A DNA stretch of 47,410 nucleotides from Flavobacteriaceae bacterium (lineage in GTDB: Bacteria > Bacteroidota > Bacteroidia > Flavobacteriales > Flavobacteriaceae): positions 1-47,410 of the forward strand of contig QXYU01000039.1 in assembly GCA_009886755.1 (NCBI GenBank), written 5' to 3'. This document shows, piece after piece, positions 3,264 to 46,864 of the stretch. Numbering within the stretch: the stretch's first letter is position 1; each line of letters starts with the position of its first letter. Both the position numbers and the translations under genes were made by a program. The notes under the pieces are model-generated. The model ran no database searches. It was not told the DNA's origin and saw only the letters and a program-made list of their open reading frames with translations.

Positions 3264-3941
3264 TTATTGTTGGATTACCTCAAAGAGTTGTCCTTCTTCA
3301 CAACGGAAGATGCGTCCTGGGAACTTAACAATCATGTTATAGTCATGTGTGGCCATCAGTAATGTCATTCCCTGACTGTGAAGTTTTTTGAATAACGTCA
3401 TTATTTCCTTGCTGGTTTCAGGATCAAGATTTCCTGTAGGCTCGTCGGCAATAATCAATTCGGGCTCATTCAAAAGGGCCCGGGCAATCGCTACTCGTTG
3501 TTGCTCCCCACCCGAAAGTTCAAAAGGAAATTTTTGTAAGTCGGCATCAACTCCGACAAGGGTTAGCACCTCTTTGATCCGTTCTGTGATTTTTTGAGTG
3601 TCTTTCCAACCGGTGGCTTTCAGAACAAAACTTAGATTGTCAAAAATGTTTCGATCGGAAAGCAGCTTAAAATCCTGAAAAACAACGCCCAGTTTACGTC
3701 GCAGTTGGGGAATCTGTTTTTCTTTTAAGGCTGCGAGGTCATAGCCGGTAATTTGACCTTGCCCCTTGTCAAGATTTAGGTCCCCGTATAAGGTTTTGAT
3801 GAGGCTGCTTTTTCCGCTGCCTGTTTTGCCAATCAAGAATACAAATTCTCCCGAATGAACTGTGAGATCAACGTCCGAAAGAACGATTTTGTCTCCCTGT
3901 TTGATTTGGGCTTTGGTAAAGGATAATATCGCGTTTGCCAT
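3264..3941 (-). CDS. ftsE: Cell-division ABC transporter ATP-binding protein FtsE
   Basis: FtsE is the ATPase of the FtsEX complex, which activates cell-wall hydrolases at the division septum rather than transporting a substrate. The 225-residue protein is a single ABC domain: Walker [10 protein letters not shown] (near residue 38), Q-loop VVFQDFKLL, signature LSGGEQQR, Walker [13 protein letters not shown] and the switch histidine in MATHDYNM. The FQDFKLL stretch and short length favour FtsE over LolD-type exporters. No ftsX lies beside it; the neighbours are typA (convergent) and the TPR gene (divergent). The minus strand upstream has TATTTTTA (3946-3953), one base off the -7 consensus. LolD/MacB-type ATPase is the main alternative. 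Confidence 0.85.
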
Positions 3942-4051: not shown

Positions 4052-7048
4052 ATGAGAATTTGGTTTTTTGCTGCATGTTATTTCACCTGTCTAATAGCTT
4101 GGACACAAAACGTATGCTATCCTTTTGATAGTCGGAATCGCGCGCAAATATTTTATCAACAAAAGGACTATTCGAATGCCTGGAGCGCTTGGGAAGTTCA
4201 AGATAAATCGGAAGATGTTTTTAAGAGTGAGGAAAAATCCTACAGAATTCTTTCTTCTGCACTTCGACTCAACACACCCGGAACCGAGAAAAAGCTAAAA
4301 ACCTTTTTGTTAGACTATCCTACTAGTTGGTATGGGGTTGGTATTCCTTTTGATCTGGCAAACTTCTATTTTGAAAATGAAAGGTATGGCTATGCCCTTA
4401 AGTGGTTTCGTAAAGTAAATGAACGAGAGGTTCCTAAGCCACAATTACCACAATACTATTTCAACAAAGGATATACCTACTTTTTGAAAAAAAACTATAA
4501 CGCTGCCCAAACCTTATTGGAAAAGGTGCAAGACCACCCGAAATATGAGTCGGACGCCCACTACTATCTGGGACATATTGCCTACCAACTTGAAGACTAC
4601 GATGGTGCGAGTCAGTCTTTTGGGAAGGTGTCCAACCCCAATCAACAAAAAGACTTGGGTTATTTTAAGGTGGATATGAATTTTAAGTTGGGACGCTTTG
4701 GGGAAGCCATTGCTTTGGGTACGGCTGAATTGGAAAAGTCCAATGCAAACACCTCTGAGCTTTCCAAAATAGTGGGTGAAAGCCATTTTAATCAAGAGGA
4801 ATACGAAAAAGCCTTACCCTATTTATTGGCCTATGAGGGCAAGAAAAATAGATGGTCCAATGTTGATTATTATCAGTTAGGGTATGCTCATTACCATTTG
4901 AAAAACTACGAAGAGGCTGTTGCACAATTCAATAAAATTGTAGGTAAAAAAGATGCCCTTGCTCAAAACGCCTATTATTTCTTGGGTTATTGCTATCTAC
5001 AAATCAAAAAGCCAACCGCAGCACGAAATGCCTTTCGCTCTGCGTCTCAGATGACTTTTGATGCAAAAGTGACAGAAGATGCCTTGTTTCAATACGGAAA
5101 ACTGAGCTACGAATTGGGGAATCCGCATGAGTCTCCACAAGCAGTAATCTCAAAATTTATTTCTAATTACCCCGACCATCCCGAAAAACTTTTGATGGAA
5201 GAATTACTGGTGGAATCATATACCAAGCTCGGAAACTACAAACAAGCGATTCGACTGCTCAAAGAAGAGGGATTGTTTAAAGACAATGCGACCTTACAAA
5301 AGGTATTGTTTTTGCAAGGGTTTAAATCCTACCAGCAAGGCAATTATCGGGAGGCCTCTCAGTTCTTTGAAGAGGCTAATGAGAAAAATGAATCGGAAAC
5401 GATGGCTCTCAGAGCCCTCTACTGGCAAGCGCAATCGGATTATCAACACAATAACTATGCGAGTGCTGTAAATCTTTTTGAGCAGTTTGAAGAAGAAACA
5501 GCAGCAAGTGAATTAGAAGAATGGAAAGCGTTAGAATACAATAAAGGCTACGCTTTTTTCAAGTTAAAACAATATTCTGAAGCGATTCAGGCTTTTGATG
5601 CCCAAACCCAACAAAAGAATGCGTTACGCAAAGAGGTGCAACGCGACTTGTTTCTTCGATTGGGAGATTCTTATTTTGCCAATAAGCAGTATTGGCCAGC
5701 GATGGAGAGCTACAATAAAGCCATTCAATTGAATCCAGCAAAAGGAAGCTATGCCCTATATCAGAAAGCGATTTCGTATGGTTTTGTGGATCGTAATCTC
5801 CAGAAAATAGAGAATTTAGAAGCCTTGATTTCCTCTAGTACAAAGCATAATTTGGTGGATGATGCTTTATTTGCCTTGGCCAGCACCCTGGCGAGTGAAA
5901 ACAAAGTGGTGGCAGCTATAGCCCAATACGACAAACTCCTTCGACTGTTTCCAAAAAGCCCCTACAGCAGCCGAGCATTGCTCAACAAAGGTTTGATTTT
6001 ATACAATCAAGAACGATTGTTAGAAGCAAAGATGGTATTGCGTCGATTGGTTTTGGAATATTCGAAGTCAGATGTGGCACAGCAAGGACTTAATACACTT
6101 CGGGAGATTGCCGTAGAGTCTGGTAAAGTTTCTGACTTTTCCCGATGGCTGCGGGATAATAGAATTCAATCGTTTAGTAATAATGAATTAGAGAAAACCG
6201 CTTTTGAAGCCGCAGAAAAGAAGTTTTTAGACAACAAGAAAAATCAGGCGGAAAAACTCCTAGTAGACTATACCACGGAACATCCATCTGGAGCCAATAA
6301 TGTGGCTGCACATTTTTATTTGGGAGAAATATACTTTGAAGAATCCAATTGGCCGAAAGCCGTTGCTGCTTATGAAAAAGTTATAGATTCCGATAATGAA
6401 TATACCGAAAAAGCTTTGGTACGTTCGGCAATGGCTCTCGTGAATGACGATAAAAAAGCAAATGCAATCCCGATTTGGCAACGTTTGGAAACGGGTGCAA
6501 ATTTCAAAGAGAACAAGCGATATGCGGAGTTCAATTTAATGAAAGCCTACTATGAAGCGGGGAATTACACCCAGTCTGTAGCCCAGAGCGAAAAGGTATT
6601 ATCACTCTCTAATGTATCAGCGAAAGTGAAATGGGATGCCTACGATATGCTAGCGCATTCGTCTCTGATTCTTAAAGACTCGGCAAAGGCCAAACAAGCA
6701 TTTATCGCTTTGGAAAAAGCACCTACGGATGCGCTGGCTGCTGAGGCGCTGTATTTTAAAGCGTATTTGTTGCATCAAGAAGGGTCTTTTGAAAAATCCA
6801 ATGCTACCATTGCAGTTATTGCGCAAAAGTATAGTAGCGCTGGGGAATGGAGTGCTAAGAGTTTATTGCTGATGGCTCAAAACTTTGAGCAATTGGAAGA
6901 TGCCTTTCAGGCCTTGTTTATTTTGGATTCGATTATCGAGAATTTCAAGCAGTATACAACAATCGTTACCCAAGCCCAAGATTTGAAAAAAGCAATTGAA
7001 AAAAAGGAAGCTGAAAAAAATGAAAGTATAGAAAATGGTAACAACTAG
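4052..7048 (+). CDS. Secreted large tetratricopeptide-repeat (TPR) protein
   Basis: About 998 residues: an N-terminal signal peptide (MRIWFFAACYFTCLIAWTQ) followed almost entirely by TPR-like helical hairpins. Recurrent motifs such as 'ALKWFRKV', 'AQTLLEKV', 'ALPYLLAYEG' and 'AIQLNP' with Gly-Tyr/Ala-Tyr at helix A positions are spaced about 34-38 residues apart. The product should be a periplasmic scaffold. Upstream in-frame starts (TTG 4022, ATG 4034) exist; ATG 4052 is preferred because it puts a basic n-region directly before the hydrophobic core. The 3' end overlaps the next gene by 14 bp, so the outer-membrane barrel downstream is probably translationally coupled and a partner. TPR-plus-barrel pairs are known in polysaccharide export (AlgK/AlgE, PgaA, BcsC), but no synthase is nearby. 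Precise function is unknown. Confidence 0.82.
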   Translation: MRIWFFAACYFTCLIAWTQNVCYPFDSRNRAQIFYQQKDYSNAWSAWEVQDKSEDVFKSEEKSYRILSSALRLNTPGTEKKLKTFLLDYPTSWYGVGIPFDLANFYFENERYGYALKWFRKVNEREVPKPQLPQYYFNKGYTYFLKKNYNAAQTLLEKVQDHPKYESDAHYYLGHIAYQLEDYDGASQSFGKVSNPNQQKDLGYFKVDMNFKLGRFGEAIALGTAELEKSNANTSELSKIVGESHFNQEEYEKALPYLLAYEGKKNRWSNVDYYQLGYAHYHLKNYEEAVAQFNKIVGKKDALAQNAYYFLGYCYLQIKKPTAARNAFRSASQMTFDAKVTEDALFQYGKLSYELGNPHESPQAVISKFISNYPDHPEKLLMEELLVESYTKLGNYKQAIRLLKEEGLFKDNATLQKVLFLQGFKSYQQGNYREASQFFEEANEKNESETMALRALYWQAQSDYQHNNYASAVNLFEQFEEETAASELEEWKALEYNKGYAFFKLKQYSEAIQAFDAQTQQKNALRKEVQRDLFLRLGDSYFANKQYWPAMESYNKAIQLNPAKGSYALYQKAISYGFVDRNLQKIENLEALISSSTKHNLVDDALFALASTLASENKVVAAIAQYDKLLRLFPKSPYSSRALLNKGLILYNQERLLEAKMVLRRLVLEYSKSDVAQQGLNTLREIAVESGKVSDFSRWLRDNRIQSFSNNELEKTAFEAAEKKFLDNKKNQAEKLLVDYTTEHPSGANNVAAHFYLGEIYFEESNWPKAVAAYEKVIDSDNEYTEKALVRSAMALVNDDKKANAIPIWQRLETGANFKENKRYAEFNLMKAYYEAGNYTQSVAQSEKVLSLSNVSAKVKWDAYDMLAHSSLILKDSAKAKQAFIALEKAPTDALAAEALYFKAYLLHQEGSFEKSNATIAVIAQKYSSAGEWSAKSLLLMAQNFEQLEDAFQALFILDSIIENFKQYTTIVTQAQDLKKAIEKKEAEKNESIENGNN

Positions 7049-8792
7049 AAAACAGATTTTTCAATTTCTTTTATCTCTAGTTCTTACGCTGGGAGTGGCT
7101 AGAGCACAAGAAAAGGAAGATTTGGGCATCCAAAAAGTCACAGTTACCAAATCGTATACCCCCAGCTTATCCGATGCATTTAAATTAAACACGGAAGAGC
7201 TAGATTTAAAAGCATTACAACCAGAAACACGTAAATTAGAATACCAACCCCAAGAAATTAAAGTTGTTTCCACCTTTGTGCCCAACAAAGCCAGTCCGCT
7301 AAAACTTCAACGAAAAAACAGAGAGGCACCCACCAACAGCCAAGTCAGTTTGGGCTTTGGAAATCTTGGACAATACCTTATTGACGCGTCTGTTCGTGCG
7401 CCCTTAGATAGTCAACAGGCTTTGGGCTTTGATGTTTTTGCAGAAGGGGAGGGGGGCGTTCCTGAGACGGCTGTTCCCAGCAAGCGAGGCCAAACAGAGA
7501 TTGCCGCAACACATCAGTATAATACCTCACAGTTTTCGGCCATACATCAGCTTGGTTTTGAGTCAACGAATAGTAATTACTATGGAGTTTATCCTGATGA
7601 TTCTACAATAAACAATAGTGTTGCAAGTGGTTTGTTGGATTTTGAGCAGCAGTTTTATTCCGTTTATGCCAAGTCGAATTGGCAGTGGTATGACAATTGG
7701 CTAGAGAAGATTCAAGCCAAATTTCGCTATTCTGGGGATCGATTTGGGACTACAGAACAGTTTGCCCATATGGCGCCCAATTTTAGAATTTCGATTTTCA
7801 ATGCTTTTTTGGATATCACTCCGAGCATAAGTTTTTTACAGACAACCTTTCAAGAAGACTATTTCATTAATGCTATTAGTAAATACAACCAATCCAAGGC
7901 AGGAGTTCAAGTCCAATTGGCAGATGTGCGCAATAAGTTTAAATATAAAATTGGAGCTAAGGCACAGTATTTTCTCGGAGATGTTGCTTTAGAGACCCCT
8001 TCTTATTTCTTCTATCCTGAGGTGTTTATGGCTTATAGCGATCCCAAGAAGAAGATGCAGCCGTATCTAAAAGTCAGTGGAAACCTTCGTCTCAATTCAT
8101 ATTATACCGCTTTTCAGCAGAATCCTTTCGTGGCTCCAGCCTTAGAATTGCAACCCACAGATGAAAAGTACAAAGGAGAACTAGGTTTCACTACATTATT
8201 CAAATCGGGAGTAGAATTTCAGTTGGCAGGGCAGTACAGTCAAGCGGATAATTTTAATCTTTTCCAGCGTTTTGCCATGGATCCGTTAGCAAATGAGCAC
8301 GGATACCGTTTGGCGAATTCCTACGGTTGGATTTACGACACAGTAACACGTTTTGGTGCTATTGCGGGTTTAAAATACAAAACCAAGAACCAAAGTGAGA
8401 TACAGATTAACATTCAGCAAAACACATACAATCTTGATACACAAATGGCGGCATGGAACCTGCCAGATATTGAGGCGCAATTGGTTGGCAATTTGAACAT
8501 TGGATCAAAAATGCGCTGGTTTACCTCCTTTCATTTTCTTGGAAGCCGCCCGGGGGCCTATCGTCCAGTGTTGTTGTTGCAAGACCCAGCTGTCAATCAA
8601 GCCGAACTTAAAAATATATCGTCAGTATCCTTTATAAAATCAGAAGTTTCCTATCAGATATATGAACAGTGGAACGTGTTTGTTCGCTATCGTTCTGTGT
8701 TTGGCGATACACCCTATCAGTGGGATTTTACTCCCTTAAACCAAAACATGTTGCTATTAGGAGCTCGCTATAAGATTAACGTCAACCTTTAA
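7035..8792 (+). CDS. Outer-membrane beta-barrel protein (TonB-receptor-like barrel without plug)
   Basis: 585 residues with a signal peptide (residues 1-24, cleavage after GVARA). The mature N-terminus starts with the stretch 'GIQKVTVTKSYTPSLSDAFK', which resembles a TonB-box/linker region, but no plug domain follows. From about residue 100 on the protein is a series of alternating-residue amphipathic strands rich in Tyr, Phe, Gln and Asn, ending with 'LLLGARYKINVNL', an aromatic/hydrophobic-terminated last strand suited to BamA recognition. It overlaps the 3' end of the TPR gene by 14 bp, so the two are likely coupled and form an envelope complex. Homologues are often labelled TonB-dependent receptor; missing plug makes passive pore or export partner more likely. 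Function is inferred only. Confidence 0.75.
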   Translation: MVTTRKQIFQFLLSLVLTLGVARAQEKEDLGIQKVTVTKSYTPSLSDAFKLNTEELDLKALQPETRKLEYQPQEIKVVSTFVPNKASPLKLQRKNREAPTNSQVSLGFGNLGQYLIDASVRAPLDSQQALGFDVFAEGEGGVPETAVPSKRGQTEIAATHQYNTSQFSAIHQLGFESTNSNYYGVYPDDSTINNSVASGLLDFEQQFYSVYAKSNWQWYDNWLEKIQAKFRYSGDRFGTTEQFAHMAPNFRISIFNAFLDITPSISFLQTTFQEDYFINAISKYNQSKAGVQVQLADVRNKFKYKIGAKAQYFLGDVALETPSYFFYPEVFMAYSDPKKKMQPYLKVSGNLRLNSYYTAFQQNPFVAPALELQPTDEKYKGELGFTTLFKSGVEFQLAGQYSQADNFNLFQRFAMDPLANEHGYRLANSYGWIYDTVTRFGAIAGLKYKTKNQSEIQINIQQNTYNLDTQMAAWNLPDIEAQLVGNLNIGSKMRWFTSFHFLGSRPGAYRPVLLLQDPAVNQAELKNISSVSFIKSEVSYQIYEQWNVFVRYRSVFGDTPYQWDFTPLNQNMLLLGARYKINVNL

Positions 8793-23122: not shown

Positions 23123-24634
23123 CTAGAGCTTCAAAAGGTAGGTCAGAAATATCTGAGTATGAATTGCTTCGGTGGCCACTGCAGAGGTTAGCCCTTCACT
23201 GTAAAGCGTGTCCTGTCGGTTGCGGATATGATTTACCATACTGATGCCAAAGAGATTGCCACCGAGATCATAGCTAAGTCCGGCTGTATAGGCTTGGTCG
23301 GTTTTTTGAATCTTTTTATCGGGGTTGGATGCACTGAGATAACCGCCTTGCAGTTGGATACGTCCGATACGATATTCCCCGCCGATACTTATCTTTTCTC
23401 GAGCGATAAAATTGTTTTGAAACAGGTTATTAAGACCTCCTAAATAATTGCCTTGACTTTCAGTGTCAAATTGCAATCCACTGATATCACTTCTACTGTA
23501 ATCAACACTCAGCAGACCTTTGTCTTTGAATATATAAGCCAAACTCAAACGTGTAACAGAAGGGATTCTGAGTTGATAGTCAGGAAATCGATTGACCACG
23601 TTTGGTTCTACTACGGTGGTGACTAGACCGTCCTCAAAAAGCCCTTCACTTTTAAGAGCTTGCTGGCCTTCTTCTTCAAAGCTCCACCAAACGGGGCTTT
23701 GGTAACTGATCCCCAAACGAAACGACAAGGGCAGTTTCAAAATCATCCCTACTTGTGCGGAAAAGCCGCTTCCATAGGTGTTGAGTACATTTTCAAAGAT
23801 AATGGATTGCACGGGGCTGTTGCTGTTAGTGCTGCGCTCCCTGAGTATCGTACGATGCTCAAACTCCAAACGATGTGAGTTTAAAGCCGCGCCAAGGTAG
23901 AGCTTGTCTTTGTAGACTCCACTCAAGGCAAAATTGTATTTGTAATGCCTACCCTTTTGCTGGGAACTCCAGTCGTGTTGTACGCTTCCTGCCACATTGG
24001 ATCGGTATTCCGTATTGCGACCATCGTCCACTAAAGGATCAATAATATAGGATTGATAGCCTAGGAAAGCTTGCTGCGCTCCATATCCAAAATTATCACC
24101 GAGATACTCATAGACCCCAGGGATGGTTTCGTCCTCAAAAAGTTCAATTTTTTCGGTCGCTAGACCATCGGCATAATAGGTGAAATAGTTTCCTAAATTT
24201 TGACTGGAATTGGTTCCTAATGCATTTCTTTTAGCCCCAAAATCAGCTACTTTTTTAATATTAAAAGCAAAAGCAAGTTTTGTCCAATCTGTATTTTCAA
24301 TAGAATTTTTGAGGGTATACACCAATCCAAAATGATTAAAACGAAATTGACTTTGTTCCTGTGCCGTTGCTGTAGAAAAATAGGTGGATGTAATTTCCTG
24401 ATTGTTGATAGCAGCAACCAATCCCAATTCCGAAAAATTGAATACACCAGCGGCTGCAGGGTTATCGGCTATAGCGGACAGATCACCGCCTAGGGCTCCA
24501 AAAGAACCAGCCATTCCAGTGTAACGCGCGGTTCCTGACAGATCTTCTTGGGTAAACAACAAGGCGTCAGTTACCGATTGGGACCATAGCGCGGTAGAAA
24601 AAATTAATAGGCTGAATGATAAAAGTACTTTCAT
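23123..24634 (-). CDS. OmpP1/FadL/TodX-family outer-membrane transport protein
   Basis: FadL-type porins are 14-stranded barrels with an N-terminal hatch that let hydrophobic compounds cross the outer membrane. The 503-residue protein has a signal peptide (residues 1-18, ending LWSQS), then the family's hatch segment: 'GTARYTGMAGSFGALGGDLS' and the NPAA motif in 'AIADNPAAAGVF' (near residue 57). The rest alternates amphipathic strands ending in 'HTQIFLTYLLKL'. It precedes folE by about 116 bp on the same strand but the gap makes co-transcription uncertain. Substrate cannot be read from sequence. Confidence 0.88.
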   Translation of the reverse strand: MKVLLSFSLLIFSTALWSQSVTDALLFTQEDLSGTARYTGMAGSFGALGGDLSAIADNPAAAGVFNFSELGLVAAINNQEITSTYFSTATAQEQSQFRFNHFGLVYTLKNSIENTDWTKLAFAFNIKKVADFGAKRNALGTNSSQNLGNYFTYYADGLATEKIELFEDETIPGVYEYLGDNFGYGAQQAFLGYQSYIIDPLVDDGRNTEYRSNVAGSVQHDWSSQQKGRHYKYNFALSGVYKDKLYLGAALNSHRLEFEHRTILRERSTNSNSPVQSIIFENVLNTYGSGFSAQVGMILKLPLSFRLGISYQSPVWWSFEEEGQQALKSEGLFEDGLVTTVVEPNVVNRFPDYQLRIPSVTRLSLAYIFKDKGLLSVDYSRSDISGLQFDTESQGNYLGGLNNLFQNNFIAREKISIGGEYRIGRIQLQGGYLSASNPDKKIQKTDQAYTAGLSYDLGGNLFGISMVNHIRNRQDTLYSEGLTSAVATEAIHTQIFLTYLLKL

Positions 24635-24746
24635 TTCAATGGAATTATATTATCAGGATGAGGCAAGGAGTGATTTGTTACAATATCATATAACACACAA
24701 TTGGCACAGTGATGAGACTGTAATAACGGGTGGGTGAGTAAGTATT

Positions 24747-25946
24747 CTAATTATTTTTTCGACCACCGCTACTACGACCGCTGGAACTTCTTCCACCCGT
24801 ACTTCTTCCGCCACTACTCGCCCTTGGGCTACTGTAGGAGCGAGAAGGGCTACTCGAACGGGAGGTGCTATATGAGCGCTGACTATTACCCTTATTGTTA
24901 TAGTTTCGGCTTCGCCCAGCATTCGTGGATCGACCTGTGGTATTTATTGTCCCCTGTGGACCGTTATAATTTGTCGTACCTCTTCGAGGAGTTCTAACCC
25001 GAACGGGTGCTACTTGCTTCACTGCGTTAGATGTTACTATGGGAGCGGCGCCAGCGGCACGTTGTCCTCGATTAGCTCTTCCTAAATTGGCAGGAATTCG
25101 ACCGTAGCCTATAGAATAGAGGTTGCGCCCCACATTGTAACGTACACGGGGTTGTTTCGTGTTTTGACTTTCTTTAGTTTGCTGTGCTGCTTTTCTATCG
25201 CTTCGACTACGATCGTCGCGACTGCCTCGGTAGCCTTTTTCTCCCCGATGGGTGGCCATACGGCTGTAGCGTTGTTCTTGCCCAAAACCATTAAAAAAAC
25301 GGTTGTTGTTTCTGAAATAACGCGATCCATAGGCATAAGGCGAATAATAGCGATAGGGATTATGATAAGGGAAAGGTCCATAAAAACCACCCCAGAATGG
25401 ATCGTAGAAGGAATTGTATCCAGCCCATCCCCAATAAGGGTTGCCACCGTATCCCCAGGCATTGTAATGCCCCCAAGGATTGTTATATCTCCAAAAATCA
25501 AACCGATTCCATCCCCAACCAGAACCAAAAAAATAGGGGTTCAACGGGCGGTTGTTGATTAGGTAAATCTCCGTGTTATTTGGTTGCGACCCCCAAGGTT
25601 GGTTGTTGACTTGAGCGCTACTATATCCGTCTACATCTACAAAAACTTCATTGTTTGGAGGCGTAGATACATACTCATCGCTAAGGTTTTGAAAGTAATT
25701 CTGATAATACCCCGTATTTTGTTGACTGCTTTGGCTAGGAGCTTGCTGATATTGATTAGCTACGTTTGAAGCTGGAGCGCCATTTATTGCTGTTTTTGTG
25801 TTTTGTCTGGGTGCCGGATTACTGTTATAAATCCCATCAGAATCATAATAAGAAACTCCTTGAAACGAACCGCATTGAAAAGAGACTCCTGCAACTAATA
25901 GAATAATGCCTATTTTTTTTCCTGTAGTAAATTTTCTCATATCCAT
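24747..25946 (-). CDS. Secreted low-complexity protein (Asn/Tyr/Gly- and Arg/Ser-rich), function unknown
   Basis: 399 residues. The N-terminus (residues 1-27) is hydrophobic after a basic patch and has a Cys at 25 in 'AGVSFQCGSF', a poor lipobox; it could be a lipoprotein or a plain secreted protein. The middle (about 110-220) is extremely rich in Asn, Tyr, Trp, Phe and Gly ('NPWGHYNAWGYGG' type runs). The C-terminal 80 residues are an Arg/Ser/Gly/Thr tract ending 'SGRSSGGRKNN', strongly basic. This looks like a surface or matrix-associated disordered protein rather than an enzyme. No catalytic motif seen. It is divergent from proS (92 bp apart). The gene is probably real because the whole frame is open and starts with a signal-like sequence. 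Confidence 0.7.
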   Translation of the reverse strand: MDMRKFTTGKKIGIILLVAGVSFQCGSFQGVSYYDSDGIYNSNPAPRQNTKTAINGAPASNVANQYQQAPSQSSQQNTGYYQNYFQNLSDEYVSTPPNNEVFVDVDGYSSAQVNNQPWGSQPNNTEIYLINNRPLNPYFFGSGWGWNRFDFWRYNNPWGHYNAWGYGGNPYWGWAGYNSFYDPFWGGFYGPFPYHNPYRYYSPYAYGSRYFRNNNRFFNGFGQEQRYSRMATHRGEKGYRGSRDDRSRSDRKAAQQTKESQNTKQPRVRYNVGRNLYSIGYGRIPANLGRANRGQRAAGAAPIVTSNAVKQVAPVRVRTPRRGTTNYNGPQGTINTTGRSTNAGRSRNYNNKGNSQRSYSTSRSSSPSRSYSSPRASSGGRSTGGRSSSGRSSGGRKNN

Positions 25947-28344: not shown

Positions 28345-29952
28345 TTACGAATTCATTGAAATCAAGAACTCTTCATTGTTTTGAGTTCGCTTAAAGCGAT
28401 CGTTAATAAACTCCATCGCTTCCACAGGATTCATGTCAGCTAAATACTTGCGCATGATCCACATCCGTTGGATGGTGTTTTCGTCAAGGAGTAAATCGTC
28501 TCGACGCGTACTGGAAGACACCAAATCAATGGCAGGGAAAATTCTACGATTGGCAATACGACGATCCAGTTGGAGTTCCATATTCCCAGTTCCTTTAAAC
28601 TCTTCAAAGATCACTTCGTCCATTTTGGAGCCTGTTTCGGTCAGGGCTGTTGCAATGATAGAAAGAGAACCTCCGTTTTCAATTTTCCGAGCCGCTCCAA
28701 AAAAGCGTTTTGGTCGGTGCAGGGCATTGGCGTCCACTCCTCCAGAAAGAATCTTTCCTGAAGCGGGTTGCACGGTGTTGTATGCCCTTGCCAGGCGGGT
28801 AATCGAATCCAATAGAATCACAACATCATGACCGCATTCGACTAATCGCTTGGCTTTTTCCAAAACGATATTAGCCACTTTAACATGGCGGTCAGCGGGC
28901 TCGTCAAAGGTTGATGCAACTACTTCACCGTCGACATTACGTTGCATATCGGTCACTTCTTCCGGGCGTTCGTCAATCAATAGAATCAATTGATATACTT
29001 CGGGGTGATTGGCCGCAATAGCATTGGCAATGTCTTTGAGGAGCATCGTTTTTCCTGTTTTAGGTTGGGAAACGATCATTCCACGTTGTCCTTTTCCAAT
29101 GGGAGAAAAGAGATCGATAATACGAGAGGAAATGGTACTCTGTTTGTCGGCCAATTTAAATTTCTCTTGAGGAAAAAGAGGCGTTAGGTGTTCAAAGGAA
29201 ACACGGTCACGAACAATTTTTGGATCCAATCCATTAAGAGTATCTACTTTAATGAGTGGAAAATATTTTTCACCTTCTTTGGGAGGACGAACAGTACCCA
29301 GAACGGTATCTCCAGTTTTGAGTCCGAACAAACGAATTTGCGATTGTGAAACGTAAACATCGTCAGGGGAGGAGAGGTAGTTATAGTCAGAGGAACGTAA
29401 AAAACCATAGCCTTCGGGCATGATTTCTAAAACCCCTTCCGTTTGAATGATCCCTTCAAATTCAAAGTCGGGTTCGCGATAACGATTGCGATGGTCTTTA
29501 TTATGATTGGGCTCTCCGTGGTGTTTTTTATTTTGGTTCCGGTTTTTGTTTCGGTTGTTTTGGTTGTTTTGGTGTTTGCGATTCGGGTTGTCGTGCCCTT
29601 CTTTGTCTTTGGATTCTTTGGCAGGGGGATTGTCTTGAGCGTCGTTTTGCTTGGGTCCTGCTTGTGGATTTTGTGTTTTTTCTGCTTTGGGTGCTCGCTC
29701 TGGCTTGTTGGTGCGTTGCGGCTTTGTTTCCTTGGGCTTTTGTTGCTTGGGCTTTTGTTCCTTTGGCTTGTTGGCCATGGGTTCATTTGCATCGGAAGCG
29801 CCAATAGCTTGCGGATTAGCAGAGATAAAATCAATAATTTGGTAAATGAGATCCAGTTTTTTAAGACCGGTAATTCGTTTCACGCCAAGGCCTTTAGCCA
29901 TGTCTTGAAGTTCATTTAACTTCTTACTTTTTAGCGTAGCGATTTCGTACAT
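28345..29952 (-). CDS. rho: Transcription termination factor Rho with long disordered insertion
   Basis: Hexameric RNA helicase that ends transcription. 535 residues: Rho N-terminal helical domain (about 1-45, '[20 protein letters not shown]'), then a low-complexity region (about 55-165) made of Lys, Asn, Pro, Gln and His, then the cold-shock-like RNA-binding domain ('[20 protein letters not shown]') and the ATPase domain with Walker A '[10 protein letters not shown]', Walker B '[16 protein letters not shown]' and '[21 protein letters not shown]'. E. coli Rho (419 residues) lacks the insertion; Bacteroides thetaiotaomicron Rho has a comparable disordered segment that drives condensate formation. 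It is divergent from the DUF4293 gene. Confidence 0.96.
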
Positions 29953-42631: not shown

Positions 42632-45535
42632 ATGAAAAAAGTGAAACTATTGTTTGTCTTGCTACTTGGTTTTATTTCATTAGCAATGCAAGCACAGCAG
42701 GTTTCTGGTATCGTTTTAGACGAAGACGATAATCCGATTCCTGGTGTGAATGTTATTGTAGAAGGAACAGCCAATGGTACGACAACAGACTTTGATGGAA
42801 ACTTTTCTATTTCTGCTAATAATGGAGATAGATTAATTTTCTCGTTTATCGGATATGCCACACAAACGTTAGCAGCCGATGGACAAACCATGTCTATTAA
42901 CCTATCACCTGACGCCACTCAACTGGACGAAATTGTCATAACAGGTCTTGGTTCCAGTGTAAAACGAGGTAATTTGGCGAATGCTGTTGCTACGGTTTCA
43001 ACAGAGGAATTGGTGGGTAAAACAAACCAAAGTACTATTGATGGAGCTCTTTACGGAAAAGTAACGGGGGTCAATATTACTGCATCTTCTGGTGCTCCTG
43101 GTGGAGGATTTGCTCTTCGATTACGGGGTATTTCTTCAATTAATGGTAATAACCAACCTTTATACATCGTTGATGGTGTATACTTGAACAATGCAGAAAT
43201 CCCATCAGGATTGCGTTTTGCTTCAGGTGCCAATCGAGGGAATGAAGAAAATGCACCCAACCGAATTGCTGACTTGGATCCAAACGATATAGAAAATATT
43301 GAAATTTTGAAAGGAGCCTCTGCTGCGGCTATCTACGGAACACGAGCCAACGCTGGTGTAGTAATCATCACCACCAAAAAAGGACGTGCTGGTAAAACAG
43401 TAATCAACTTAAATCAAAGTGTTGGATTCAATACGATTATCAAAAAGTTGGGCATGCGTAACTGGACAGCTTCTAGTGTAGAAGCAGCTTTTGGACCAAG
43501 TGAAGTACCTTTTTTCAACGAAGCTATTGCCGCTGGCGGATTGGTTGATTATGAAGAAGAAATTTATGGTCAGCAAGGGCTTATCACTGATACAAAAATT
43601 AGCGCTTCTGGCGGTAATGATAAGACAACTTTCTATGTCGGCGCTTCCTATAGAGACGAAGCAGGTATCATTGATAATACTGGCTTTGATCGTTTTTCGA
43701 TTCGAGCAAACATCGAGCATAAAATTTCCAATACCTTTGATTTATCAATTAATTCAAACTTTATTCAAAGTGGTTCACAACGTAGTTTCTCTGGAAACGA
43801 GAACCAGGGAGGACTAAGTTACGGTTACACATTGGCCTATACACGCCCATGGTTTAGAGGTTTCCCCGATGCTAACGGGAATTATCCTGACAACCCTAAT
43901 GCTTCAGGAAACCCCATTTATGTAAGAGATAAAACAGTCAATGATGATGTCAACAATCGTTTGATTCAAAGTGCAAAATTGACAACTAATATTTTGCAAA
44001 GTGAGGGGAATACTCTGAAAATGATTTGGAGTGGAGGGATTGATTTTCTTGCCAATGAAACTTTTGTTTATGTTCCTGAAACACACCAAGCTCAAAAAGG
44101 TGGTGATAATGGGTTTATTGGAGTTGGTAAGAACAACTTTAAAAATTACAATCTATTAGGTATTGCCGTATGGAATAAGGATGCTATGGGTGGCGATTTA
44201 GGTTTAACCACACAAGCGGGTGTTTCCTACTTGTCTCGTGATGCAGATTTAATCCTTAACCGAGCAACGCAATTGATTCCAGGACAAACAGCTCTTGGTC
44301 AAGGTTCCTCACAGCAAATAGATCAAACACAATCACTGGTTCGTGAATTTGGTTATTTTGGACAAGTTGAAGGGAACTATAAAGACCAACTGGTTGGTAC
44401 CTTAGGTTATCGTATTGATAAATCTACCTTGAATGGTGATCCAAATAAATTTTATGGATTCCCAAAGGCCTCTTTGGCCATCAACTTACAAAATTTTGAT
44501 GGATGGGAATCAGGGACTATAGATCAATTTAAGATTAGAGCTGCTTATGGAGAAACAGGTTCTTCGGCAAGCTTTGGATCTGTTTTCACCTCCCTGAATC
44601 AAACATCCATTGGTGGTGTAGGAGGTTCAAGCATATCATCACTCAAAGGAGATTCCACCATCCAACCAGAAACTTCACAAGAATTAGAAGCAGGAGTCGA
44701 TTTGCGTTTCCTTGGAAAGATAGGGGTAGAGCTTTCGTACTATAATCGAAATGTTAACGATTTGATTTTGAGTCGTGCCCTTGAAACATCTAGTGGTTTT
44801 GGAAGCGAGACAACCAATCTTGCTGATTTGAAAAACTACGGAGTTGAGCTGGGACTAAATATTGATGCCTATGATACAGAAACGTTTTCTTGGGATACCG
44901 GTATCCAATTTTGGTTTAACCGATCTGAAATAACGAAACTTGATGTACCAGCCTTTCCACAACCGGGAGCTGGATTTGGTTTAGGGCTTGGTACTTTCTA
45001 CATTCAAGAAGGTCAGCCCGTTACCCAATTGGCTGGAAATGTTAACGGTGTTCCAACACAAATCGGAAACGTAGAACCAGATTTTCAAATGTCATTCAAC
45101 AACCAATTTACCATTGGAAAAAATCTTGACATTCGATTCTTGATTCACTGGAAAGAAGGAGGGGAAAACATTAACCTTTCAAAATTATTAACAGATTTGA
45201 GTAGTCTTACCCCTGATTTGGACACACCAGAAGGGCAAGAAAGAACGGGTCTTGGCTTTGTGGCGGAACGCTTTATCGAACCCGCCGCATATTTGCGACT
45301 ACGAGAGGCGGCAATTTACTACACCTTACCAGACGATACTTTTGCCTGGTTATCTGAGGGCATTAGCAGTGTTCGTTTGGGACTAACAGGAAGAAATCTG
45401 TTTACCATCACAGATTACAGTAGTTATGATCCAGAAACTTCCGTAAACGGAGGGGCTGGTTTATCCAGTGGAATTGAGGTAACTCCTTTCCCGAGCTCTA
45501 AACAGTATATGTTTAATCTTAATGTCAAATTTTAA
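42632..45535 (+). CDS. SusC/RagA-family TonB-dependent outer-membrane transporter
   Basis: 967 residues; imports glycans or peptides together with its SusD lipoprotein lid. Order: signal peptide (1-21, ending MQAQ), carboxypeptidase-D-like beta-sandwich ('GIVLDEDDNPIPGVNVIVEG', about 26-100), TonB box/plug start 'LDEIVITGLGSS' (near 103), plug with 'PLYIVDGVYLNN' and 'IENIEILKGASAAAIYGTRA', then the barrel ending 'QYMFNLNVKF' with a terminal Phe. No sigma/anti-sigma genes or regulator lie beside it. susD follows 12 bp later. Substrate not readable from sequence; a peptidase-like gene downstream hints at peptides. Confidence 0.95.
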   Translation: MKKVKLLFVLLLGFISLAMQAQQVSGIVLDEDDNPIPGVNVIVEGTANGTTTDFDGNFSISANNGDRLIFSFIGYATQTLAADGQTMSINLSPDATQLDEIVITGLGSSVKRGNLANAVATVSTEELVGKTNQSTIDGALYGKVTGVNITASSGAPGGGFALRLRGISSINGNNQPLYIVDGVYLNNAEIPSGLRFASGANRGNEENAPNRIADLDPNDIENIEILKGASAAAIYGTRANAGVVIITTKKGRAGKTVINLNQSVGFNTIIKKLGMRNWTASSVEAAFGPSEVPFFNEAIAAGGLVDYEEEIYGQQGLITDTKISASGGNDKTTFYVGASYRDEAGIIDNTGFDRFSIRANIEHKISNTFDLSINSNFIQSGSQRSFSGNENQGGLSYGYTLAYTRPWFRGFPDANGNYPDNPNASGNPIYVRDKTVNDDVNNRLIQSAKLTTNILQSEGNTLKMIWSGGIDFLANETFVYVPETHQAQKGGDNGFIGVGKNNFKNYNLLGIAVWNKDAMGGDLGLTTQAGVSYLSRDADLILNRATQLIPGQTALGQGSSQQIDQTQSLVREFGYFGQVEGNYKDQLVGTLGYRIDKSTLNGDPNKFYGFPKASLAINLQNFDGWESGTIDQFKIRAAYGETGSSASFGSVFTSLNQTSIGGVGGSSISSLKGDSTIQPETSQELEAGVDLRFLGKIGVELSYYNRNVNDLILSRALETSSGFGSETTNLADLKNYGVELGLNIDAYDTETFSWDTGIQFWFNRSEITKLDVPAFPQPGAGFGLGLGTFYIQEGQPVTQLAGNVNGVPTQIGNVEPDFQMSFNNQFTIGKNLDIRFLIHWKEGGENINLSKLLTDLSSLTPDLDTPEGQERTGLGFVAERFIEPAAYLRLREAAIYYTLPDDTFAWLSEGISSVRLGLTGRNLFTITDYSSYDPETSVNGGAGLSSGIEVTPFPSSKQYMFNLNVKF

Positions 45536-45547
45536 ATCAAACGAAAA

Positions 45548-46864
45548 ATGAAATATTTAGACATTACATACAGAAAAATGAACAAGGTTCTTCTTCTGCT
45601 AAGTGCATTAGCTATTGTCTCTTGTACCTTTGATGATGAAGTTGATCCGAATCGACCCAGTTTACAGGGAGTGCTATCAGAAGCATCGATCAACCAACTC
45701 AATAATTTAGTAGTGGGTACACAATCAGCAATGCGATTGGGACTGGAAATTCAAACAACGGGTGCTGGCACTATGGCCAGAGAACTTTATTTGTTTGACG
45801 CCGATCCAAGAAACACAGCCGATCTTTTGGGAGCTAATGGAGCAAACTTAGACAATAACTCGTTCTATACCACTTCTCCTTGGAGATCTCGATATGTTGC
45901 CATCAAAAACGCCAATATTCTTCTTGACGCGGTTGATAACACTTCCGCGGCAAGTGACGCTCAGAAGGCTGGGTATAGAGGTTTTGCTAAGACCGTCATC
46001 GCACACGAACTAATTCAGTTAGTTAAATCCTTTAACCGTGCACGAATTGATGTATCCGACCCTAAAAATCTGGGCCCTATACAAGATGCTAGTGCAGTAT
46101 TTTCAGCAGTCAACACAATGCTAGATGATGCTTTATCTGATTTAAGCAGAGCAGGATCTTCTTTTGCATTTTCATTGGCAGGTTTCACGAGTTTTGATTC
46201 CCCGAGTACATTTTCTCAATTCAATCATGCTTTAAAAGCAGTTGTAGCAGTATACAGCGGAGACAGCTCTGGTGCGCTTACGTCACTCTCAGCTTCCTTT
46301 ATGGATATCGATGGAGATTTGACGGTTGGACCCAAACACGTTTTCAGCCTCAACAGTGGTGATTCAACCAATCCTATTTATAAGATTGTAGACAACAATG
46401 GAGATCAAATCATTGTACACGACAGCTTTATGAATGATGCTGAAGCTGGTGATACTCGTGTTTCCAGAAAAACAGTTGTCCGAGCCAATCCAGCTTCTCA
46501 AGATGGATTGACAGGAACGCATCAAACAGCCTTGTATAGCACAAATGTTTCTTCTATAGATATCGTTCGAAATGAGGAATTGGTTCTCTTGTATGCAGAG
46601 GCAAACATTCCTGGTGACCTTGCAGAGGCAACTCGCGCAATTAATGTCATTAGAAATGCTGCTGGATTAGCTGACTATAGTGATGCTAATACAGCTGCTG
46701 CACTGACAACAGAACTATTGCATCAAAGAAGATATTCTCTTTGGTGTGAAAATCACAGAATGTATGATTTGAGAAGATATAATTTATCATCTTCATTACC
46801 GCTTGACAGATCTGGCGATCAAGTATTCAATGTATTCCCTATCCCTCTGACAGAGAATGAATAA
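45548..46864 (+). CDS. SusD/RagB-family nutrient-binding outer-membrane lipoprotein
   Basis: 438 residues, somewhat short for SusD (often about 500). Lipoprotein signal with lipobox 'AIVSC'; either ATG 45548 or ATG 45578 (giving 'MNKVLLLLSALAIVSC') may be the start, the latter being the more classic signal. The TPR-like helical scaffold is indicated by 'RYVAIKNANILLDAV' and 'GYRGFAKTVIAHELIQLVK', and the end shows the family hallmark 'ELLHQRRYSLWCENHRMYDL' followed by 'NVFPIPLTENE'. It closes the SusC transporter from outside. Followed by a strong terminator. Confidence 0.93.
   Translation: MKYLDITYRKMNKVLLLLSALAIVSCTFDDEVDPNRPSLQGVLSEASINQLNNLVVGTQSAMRLGLEIQTTGAGTMARELYLFDADPRNTADLLGANGANLDNNSFYTTSPWRSRYVAIKNANILLDAVDNTSAASDAQKAGYRGFAKTVIAHELIQLVKSFNRARIDVSDPKNLGPIQDASAVFSAVNTMLDDALSDLSRAGSSFAFSLAGFTSFDSPSTFSQFNHALKAVVAVYSGDSSGALTSLSASFMDIDGDLTVGPKHVFSLNSGDSTNPIYKIVDNNGDQIIVHDSFMNDAEAGDTRVSRKTVVRANPASQDGLTGTHQTALYSTNVSSIDIVRNEELVLLYAEANIPGDLAEATRAINVIRNAAGLADYSDANTAAALTTELLHQRRYSLWCENHRMYDLRRYNLSSSLPLDRSGDQVFNVFPIPLTENE

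Follow-up and report, generated by a model that had tools for sequence, protein, structure and literature searches.

A giant TPR protein and a plug-less outer-membrane barrel in Flavobacteriaceae: candidate parts of a Tol/Ton-type envelope module

What does a giant tetratricopeptide repeat (TPR) protein do together with an outer-membrane β-barrel whose gene it overlaps? This question is raised by a 47,410-nucleotide stretch of DNA from a Flavobacteriaceae bacterium (contig QXYU01000039.1 of assembly GCA_009886755.1; hereafter the window), part of a 1.78-Mb draft genome (G000, contig C33). An earlier note, made from the letters of the window, had described the gene of a ~1000-residue TPR protein overlapping by 14 bp that of a 585-residue barrel, which the open reading frames (ORFs) confirmed (998 and 585 amino acids). 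The same note suggested an undescribed envelope module, and we indeed found no published description in the literature searched, which left most subscription papers and all preprints outside. The findings presented here indicate that the pair is old and linked, and that the window barrel is, as modelled, a TonB-dependent transporter (TBDT)-type barrel without a plug. Beyond the view that the window offers, the operon of many relatives also encodes a SPOR protein and a motor of the TolQ-TolR-TonB type. On balance, we favour the reading that the two proteins are the periplasmic and outer-membrane parts of a Tol/Ton-type trans-envelope module powered by the proton-motive force, which would probably link the outer membrane to peptidoglycan at division. 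All evidence for this reading is comparative and consists of linkage, co-occurrence, predicted folds, domains and the grouping of motor genes.

The linkage of the two genes was followed in 148 genomes with a completeness of at least 90 %, drawn over Bacteroidota (the phylum sample). A full-length TPR orthologue was present in 107 of them and the barrel, at E ≤ 1e-30, in the identical 107. This barrel threshold was set post hoc, after seeing a gap from 9.3e-33 to 1.4e-23, and the weaker, mostly partial matches in family f29 and other genomes were taken as other TBDTs. The two genes were neighbours (same strand, gap up to 2.5 kb) in 84 of the 107 genomes, with gaps above 1.1 kb in five of the 84 pairs; the 23 remaining cases were G091 and the whole of families f33 and f35 (22 genomes). 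The coupling that the earlier note had read from the overlap is thus borne out as co-occurrence and, mostly, as neighbourhood; routine linkage across Bacteroidota held for the joint retention of the genes and failed for their adjacency in those 23 genomes. The TPR gene without a barrel in f33 and f35 was at first read as a loss, and a deeper profile found the barrel elsewhere in those genomes. That profile consisted of 46 hand-picked sequences, 32 of them from 38 phylum loci (two, L174 and L188, chosen by position alone); four loci without an adjacent barrel, one missed by the ORF-length filter and one second TPR copy were left out. When the 34 genomes contributing to the profile were subtracted, both genes were present in 73 out of 73 and neighbours in 50. 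The TPR gene was found once in 105 of the 107 genomes with the pair, and in 152 out of 158 genomes of a class sample, mostly as a single copy. The two samples share genomes and the genomes are related, so these counts are not independent events. Closer to the window, the best 80 named loci of a TPR-profile search, from Flavobacteriaceae such as Flavobacterium, Aquimarina and Maribacter, carried the barrel downstream on the same strand in 79 cases (74 within 100 bp; the 80th was cut by a contig end), an adjacency beyond chance. Among 40 relatives, the barrel was found at E ≤ 0.001 in 28, with a TPR orthologue adjoining in all 28. Eight further stretches were matched by the TPR query alone: five (L048-L052) had a diverged barrel beside the TPR gene, two (L053 and L054) were cut by contig ends and one (L055) had no TPR orthologue.

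Some loci departed from the simple arrangement. About 1.0-1.4 kb separated the two genes in L112, in four genomes of genus g38 (G059, G063, G106 and G180) and in G147, leaving room for an extra gene; G147 (L184) carried a 445-amino-acid ORF there. Second TPR copies were seen in G041 (L193, 839 amino acids), where no barrel was found in the stretch, and in G166 (contig C66), which also had a second barrel match.

The predicted structures indicate what the two proteins may be. The TPR protein, which begins with a signal-peptide-like stretch (by reading) followed by TPRs (Pfam TPR_2, 1.1e-38, and others), was modelled with AlphaFold2 (AF2) from 50 of the 80 loci as an all-helical protein, one long α-solenoid up to residue 992 (predicted local distance difference test, pLDDT, 89.6; predicted template-modelling score, pTM, 0.56). 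Its overall curvature is uncertain given this pTM. Among the best 50 Foldseek matches of this model, most came from eukaryotic complexes with TPR-type solenoids (query-length TM-scores of 0.12-0.27), and the bacterial ones were two chains of the Campylobacter jejuni flagellar-motor periplasmic scaffold (ranks 24 and 27); the alignment profile matched TPR proteins of many kinds in the PDB. The protein passed the NCBIfam cut-offs of tol_pal_ybgF and BamD and did not reach that of PorW/SprE. We ascribe all of these NCBIfam matches to general TPR similarity, since they fall on repeats within the 998-residue solenoid. The TPR protein is presumably a periplasmic scaffold. For the barrel, the AF2 input comprised the window sequence and 75 homologues from the 80 loci (omitting L059, without a barrel; L111 and L118, cut; and L124 and L128), and the model showed 22 strands (pLDDT 83, pTM 0.78). 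As the earlier note had claimed, no plug domain was present in this model: residues 25-96 were of low confidence or disordered and the strands began at residue 102. The barrel had no Pfam match of any kind up to E 0.1, and its sole NCBIfam match was at chance level (gatB, 0.094). A Foldseek search against the PDB gave 807 matches (E up to 10), of which the best 50 were all TBDTs, BtuB first (E 4.5e-17, TM-scores 0.57/0.61). Similarly, all 23 PDB sequences that the profile of 46 orthologues matched at E ≤ 3.1e-5 (best 4.2e-11) were TBDTs, aligned to their barrel parts, and weaker matches included a porin.

These folds bear on the first function that the earlier note had proposed, export of polysaccharide or matrix after the plan of AlgK/AlgE, PgaA or BcsC. 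The pair shares with those systems the architecture of a TPR scaffold plus an outer-membrane barrel, and 48 of 115 loci with the window's gene order carry, ~5.4 kb upstream and on the opposite strand, a gene read as glycosyltransferase-like. Those exporters have smaller barrels (16-18 strands) and a dedicated synthase, neither of which was seen at the pair: no AlgE, PgaA or BcsC chain was among the best 50 of the 807 barrel matches, and none of the immediate conserved neighbours at the 115 loci was recognised as a polysaccharide synthase. The near-universal TPR gene of the class sample would also be unlike accessory exopolysaccharide systems. The exporter plan was therefore disfavoured and we consider it very improbable.

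The N-terminal tail of the barrel, residues 25-96, is a candidate docking site for TonB or for the TPR protein. A strict TonB-box-like pattern was present in 10 out of 46 barrel tails (mean of 0.08 and maximum of 1 in 500 rounds of shuffling) and in none of the barrel bodies, while a relaxed pattern was present in 29 out of 46 (shuffled mean 9.5, maximum 19); both patterns were drawn up after viewing the sequences and the counts are descriptive. The TonB-box-like N-terminus announced by the earlier note held only in part. The strict pattern is absent from the window copy (IQKVTVTK), which is a weak example, and flavobacterial tails (EVVTVVKPYTPTISDAFK-like) merely resemble a TonB box; plainer stretches, such as LPEFLITG and LPDFVITG, occur in distant relatives. 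A comparable stretch, LDEIVITG, is found in the window's own SusC-like protein, a 967-amino-acid receptor that is followed by a SusD-like lipoprotein of 438 amino acids (positions 42632-46864, by reading). A nutrient importer, namely a TonB-dependent receptor whose plug was lost or swapped and to which the TPR protein is an accessory, would account for the TBDT-type barrel, for the tails and for the TolQ/ExbB, TolR/ExbD and TonB-type genes that adjoin the pair in relatives. We consider it improbable, as there is no plug to gate import, the partner is a SPOR protein, no substrate genes were recognised as conserved neighbours and nearly every genome with the pair has one TPR copy.

The genes that travel with the pair support a link to a motor and to the cell wall. 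They were sought at the 38 phylum loci with SPOR, TolQ and TolR profiles that we built from 7, 6 and 5, respectively, of the loci later searched with them, counting genes on the same strand that start within 5 kb of the TPR end. SPOR followed the barrel at 26 out of 38 loci, TolQ and TolR at 17, and all three at 15; random placement would put TolQ-TolR in ~2 % of the sampled stretches (an estimate from ~3 ExbD genes per genome and 20 kb of 3-4 Mb). Pfam identified HU-CCDC81 domains together with SPOR in L156 and L161, SPOR in L172, L173, L177, L168 and L187, MotA_ExbB and ExbD in L156 and L172, and TonB_C or TonB_2 in L172 and L177. No TolQ or TolR was found near L177 with our profiles. At eight f33/f35 barrel loci, with the TPR gene apart, SPOR followed the barrel in 8/8 (weakest match 21.4 bits), TolQ in 8/8 and TolR in 7/8; thus, where the pair has come apart, it is the barrel that remains linked to the motor. 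FtsK lay upstream of this barrel-SPOR-TolQ operon in six of the eight (L253-L255, L257, L259 and L260; Pfam). In the window's own order, the conserved neighbours were a divergent FtsE-like ATPase gene (106 out of 115 loci; best NCBIfam model FtsE, 248.1 bits against a cut-off of 264.85) and an amidohydrolase gene, the immediate conserved neighbour in 55; except for these two, neighbours were named by reading. No OmpA-domain match that would indicate Pal was found among the subset of neighbours chosen for the Pfam scan. SPOR domains bind denuded septal glycan, and the FtsE, FtsK and EnvC families have division roles. We regard it as highly probable that the SPOR and TolQ-TolR proteins are working partners of the pair; that its job is outer-membrane constriction or tethering we hold to be evenly balanced.

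In the window's genome, counterparts of these partners are encoded elsewhere. An HU-SPOR gene (L225, contig C31), with HU-CCDC81_bac_1, HU-CCDC81_bac_2 and SPOR above cut-off, adjoins an M23 peptidase gene of EnvC-like make-up and a DprA-like gene. HU-CCDC81_bac_2 was above cut-off in 38 of the 40 relatives and in one of 14 control genomes (seven of the 14 match below or above it). TolQ and TolR (Pfam), followed by a TolA-like gene, which was assigned by position and make-up and has no Pfam match, lie in a cluster with NhaD-like and FolC-like genes (names by reading). In a FastTree phylogeny of TolQ/ExbB, the window's TolQ, twelve other Flavobacteriales TolQs and 18 operon TolQs formed a clade of 31 (support 1.0) that excluded the ExbBs of two nutrient-type systems, one of them the window genome's own, and three f29 TolQs. 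Where the genes stand in the window's order, the link to the motor rests on orthology.

The same loci bear on another explanation, according to which the pair belongs to an outer-membrane biogenesis or lipid/lipoprotein export module with a Ton-type motor, in which the open barrel would serve as conduit and the TPR protein as a chaperone or bridge in the periplasm. An open, plug-less barrel of 22 strands would form a large pore. Upstream of the f33/f35 barrel, LolA was above cut-off in L253 and just below it in L254, and L253 also carried LPG_synthase_TM. In addition, the absence of the pair from f29 parallels the reported absence of BamG, BamH and SprA from Chlorobiota (PMC12611786). On the other side, the β-barrel assembly machinery (BAM) purified from F. 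johnsoniae is reported to consist of BamA, D, G, H, M and P, with no giant TPR protein (PMC12611786), and the neighbouring SPOR, FtsK and FtsE-like genes suggest a septal site. This makes a biogenesis or export module rather unlikely. A relation of the barrel to BamG was considered and discarded, since the published BamG was superposed on FadL (PMC12611786) and the window barrel matches TBDTs.

The distribution of the pair was also set against that of Tol-Pal. Family f29 (30 genomes), which fits and would represent Chlorobiaceae/Chlorobiota, lacks both the TPR gene (called at 1e-60) and the barrel gene (1e-30). Its tolQ, tolR, tolA-like, tolB, pal and TPR lipoprotein genes are clustered: contiguous in L252 and, in the Pfam-checked locus L249, with one unrelated gene before tolB; an OmpA-domain protein is encoded in the f29 locus. 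A TolB profile (E ≤ 1e-25) matched 36 of the 148 phylum genomes: in 30, all from f29, the match was full-length, and in the other six it covered part of a propeller; five of these six have the pair. Full-length TolB and the TPR gene never occurred together (0/148). TolB_N (PF04052) was above cut-off in six genomes, four from f29 and two from f41. This contrast is compatible with replacement without proving it, as f29 is a single family and Chlorobiota are reported to lack several other systems, so that it constitutes a single, confounded event.

The distribution also allowed us to weigh a type 9 secretion system (T9SS) or gliding accessory module, which the earlier note had mentioned as a second setting for such proteins. 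SprA was present in 117 of the 148 phylum genomes, including 106 of the 107 with the pair and none of the 30 from f29, a pattern in keeping with a T9SS role. In the 158 class genomes, where the TPR gene was searched and the barrel left out, SprA was present in 153; the five without SprA all kept the TPR gene and the six without the TPR gene all had SprA, as did 11 phylum genomes that lack it, so the two genes are separable. Since no T9SS gene was recognised next to the pair either, the T9SS explanation was disfavoured and seems quite improbable.

Returning to the Tol/Ton-type module, its parts would be the TPR scaffold, the plug-less TBDT-type barrel, a SPOR protein (HU-SPOR in some cases), a TolQ-TolR-type motor and a TonB/TolA-like transducer. 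TolQ and TolR would energise the transducer. The C-terminal domain of the transducer would take hold of the barrel's disordered, TonB-box-like tail and so pull on an anchor in the outer membrane, there being no plug to displace. The TPR solenoid would dock at the periplasmic face of the barrel and couple it to SPOR, which would in turn bind denuded septal glycan. The likely purpose would be to draw the outer membrane inward with the wall during constriction, the job of Tol-Pal elsewhere. We infer complex formation, the contacts, force transfer, use of the TonB box and the role in division from the comparisons described above. A more far-reaching version, which we put forward only tentatively, is that of a complete Tol-Pal substitute across Bacteroidota, in which TolQ-TolR, via a TonB-like rod, pulls the tail of the open barrel and the ~1000-residue TPR superhelix connects the barrel with septal glycan bound by SPOR; through HU-SPOR members, the nucleoid might even join this chain.

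The pair can be compared with several known systems. Like Tol-Pal (TolQ-TolR-TolA, TolB, Pal and CpoB/YbgF), it is associated with TolQ/TolR-type motor genes, a TolA/TonB-like transducer, a TPR protein, a peptidoglycan-binding part and division-gene neighbours. TolQ and TolR genes encoded with the outer-membrane parts, as in Tol-Pal, were present at 17 of the 38 phylum loci and, for TolQ, at all eight split-type loci, and at one of the 115 loci in the window's order. The differences are that no TolB or Pal was seen beside the pair, that the outer-membrane anchor is a 22-strand barrel, that peptidoglycan contact would be via SPOR and that the TPR protein has ~1000 residues, against 266 in the TPR lipoprotein of the f29 operon. 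TBDTs (BtuB, FrpB, FpvA and SusC) have the 22-strand barrel nearest in predicted fold and in sequence profile, and distant members of the family share TonB-box-like tails with them; unlike TBDTs, the window barrel lacks a plug, has a TPR partner in every sampled genome with the barrel and has no known substrate. The Agl/Glt gliding machine of Myxococcus also has a TolQ-TolR-type motor acting on TPR proteins and outer-membrane barrels, a likeness of architecture with other components in another phylum. PorE has been proposed for the place of Tol-Pal in the same phylum (PMC12204202). PorE differs from the pair as a single lipoprotein that combines CpoB, TolB, carboxypeptidase-like and Pal-like parts, and the consulted part of that article describes no relation to the pair (PMC12204202).

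Several observations weigh against the Tol/Ton-type module. TolQ and TolR were in the fetched stretch at only 1 of the 115 loci in the window's order (L024), with three other genes between. Neither SPOR nor TolQ-TolR was near at 10 of the 38 phylum loci, namely five of eight class loci (f17-f23), four split-type TPR loci and one second TPR copy. Some SPOR matches with our own profiles were weak, scoring as low as 21-25 bits. For the L024 and L172 motor proteins, NCBIfam tolQ and tolR/ExbD were the best models, with scores far below the cut-offs, and the transducers of L156, L183 and L224 had no Pfam TonB match, that of L254 being just below cut-off. Seven operon TolQs fell outside the clade of the window's TolQ, beyond the nutrient-type ExbBs; the operon TolQs do not emerge as one group, because the support of the deep nodes was only 0.15-0.32. 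Regarding replacement, the TolB_N matches in the two f41 genomes, which have the pair, were marginal and lay in frames of ~1040-1090 amino acids unlike TolB, and the TolB_N control also matched in Bacteroides ihuae. Eleven phylum genomes have neither TPR, barrel nor full-length TolB, and all 11 have SprA (G040, G044, G045, G050, G052, G054, G117, G125, G163, G171 and G175). Moreover, Chlorobiota are reported to lack SprA, SusCD, BamG and BamH (PMC12611786), and PorE, as well as TolB-Pal fusions in some taxa, has been proposed as the Tol-Pal counterpart (PMC12204202).

The coordinates of the pair and its parts are collected in Table 1. Elsewhere in the window, a Rho-like termination factor whose long N-terminal region is rich in Lys, Asn and Gln was recognised by reading (28345-29952, minus strand), as well as a putative outer-membrane barrel (503 amino acids) adjoining a Tyr/Gly/Arg/Ser-rich protein of 399 amino acids (23123-25946, minus strand).

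Table 1. Features of the TPR-barrel locus in the window
Feature	Position	Strand	Description and basis
TPR protein gene	4052..7048	+	998 aa; ORF; Pfam TPR; AF2 pLDDT 89.6
Outer-membrane β-barrel gene, predicted TBDT barrel fold without plug	7035..8792	+	585 aa; ORF; AF2; Foldseek PDB
Overlap of TPR and barrel genes	7035..7048	+	14 bp, different frames; from sequence
Barrel residues 25-96	7107..7322	+	Low model confidence; TonB-box-like stretch, then the family's FSxPVASTFTPAKGKA-like stretch (conserved motifs)
TonB-box-like stretch IQKVTVTK of barrel	7128..7151	+	Weak in window copy; plainer in distant orthologues
22 predicted transmembrane strands of barrel, residues 102-581	7338..8777	+	AF2
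Divergent FtsE-like ABC ATPase gene	3264..3941	-	Conserved neighbour in the window's order; 106/115 loci, window included

A 2025 analysis found Bacteroidota without identifiable tol-pal loci, proposed PorE and stated that further systems stabilising the outer membrane remain to be revealed (PMC12204202). How the outer membrane is attached and constricted in Bacteroidota without Tol-Pal is a question that the pair makes testable by depletion, because it is widespread (107 of 148 phylum genomes; the TPR gene in 152 of 158 class genomes), mostly single-copy and, in many relatives, tied to a motor operon and a wall-binding domain. Should the Tol/Ton-type reading be true, a plug-less TBDT-type barrel would have a non-transport role and a TonB-type system would move the outer membrane itself, not a nutrient.

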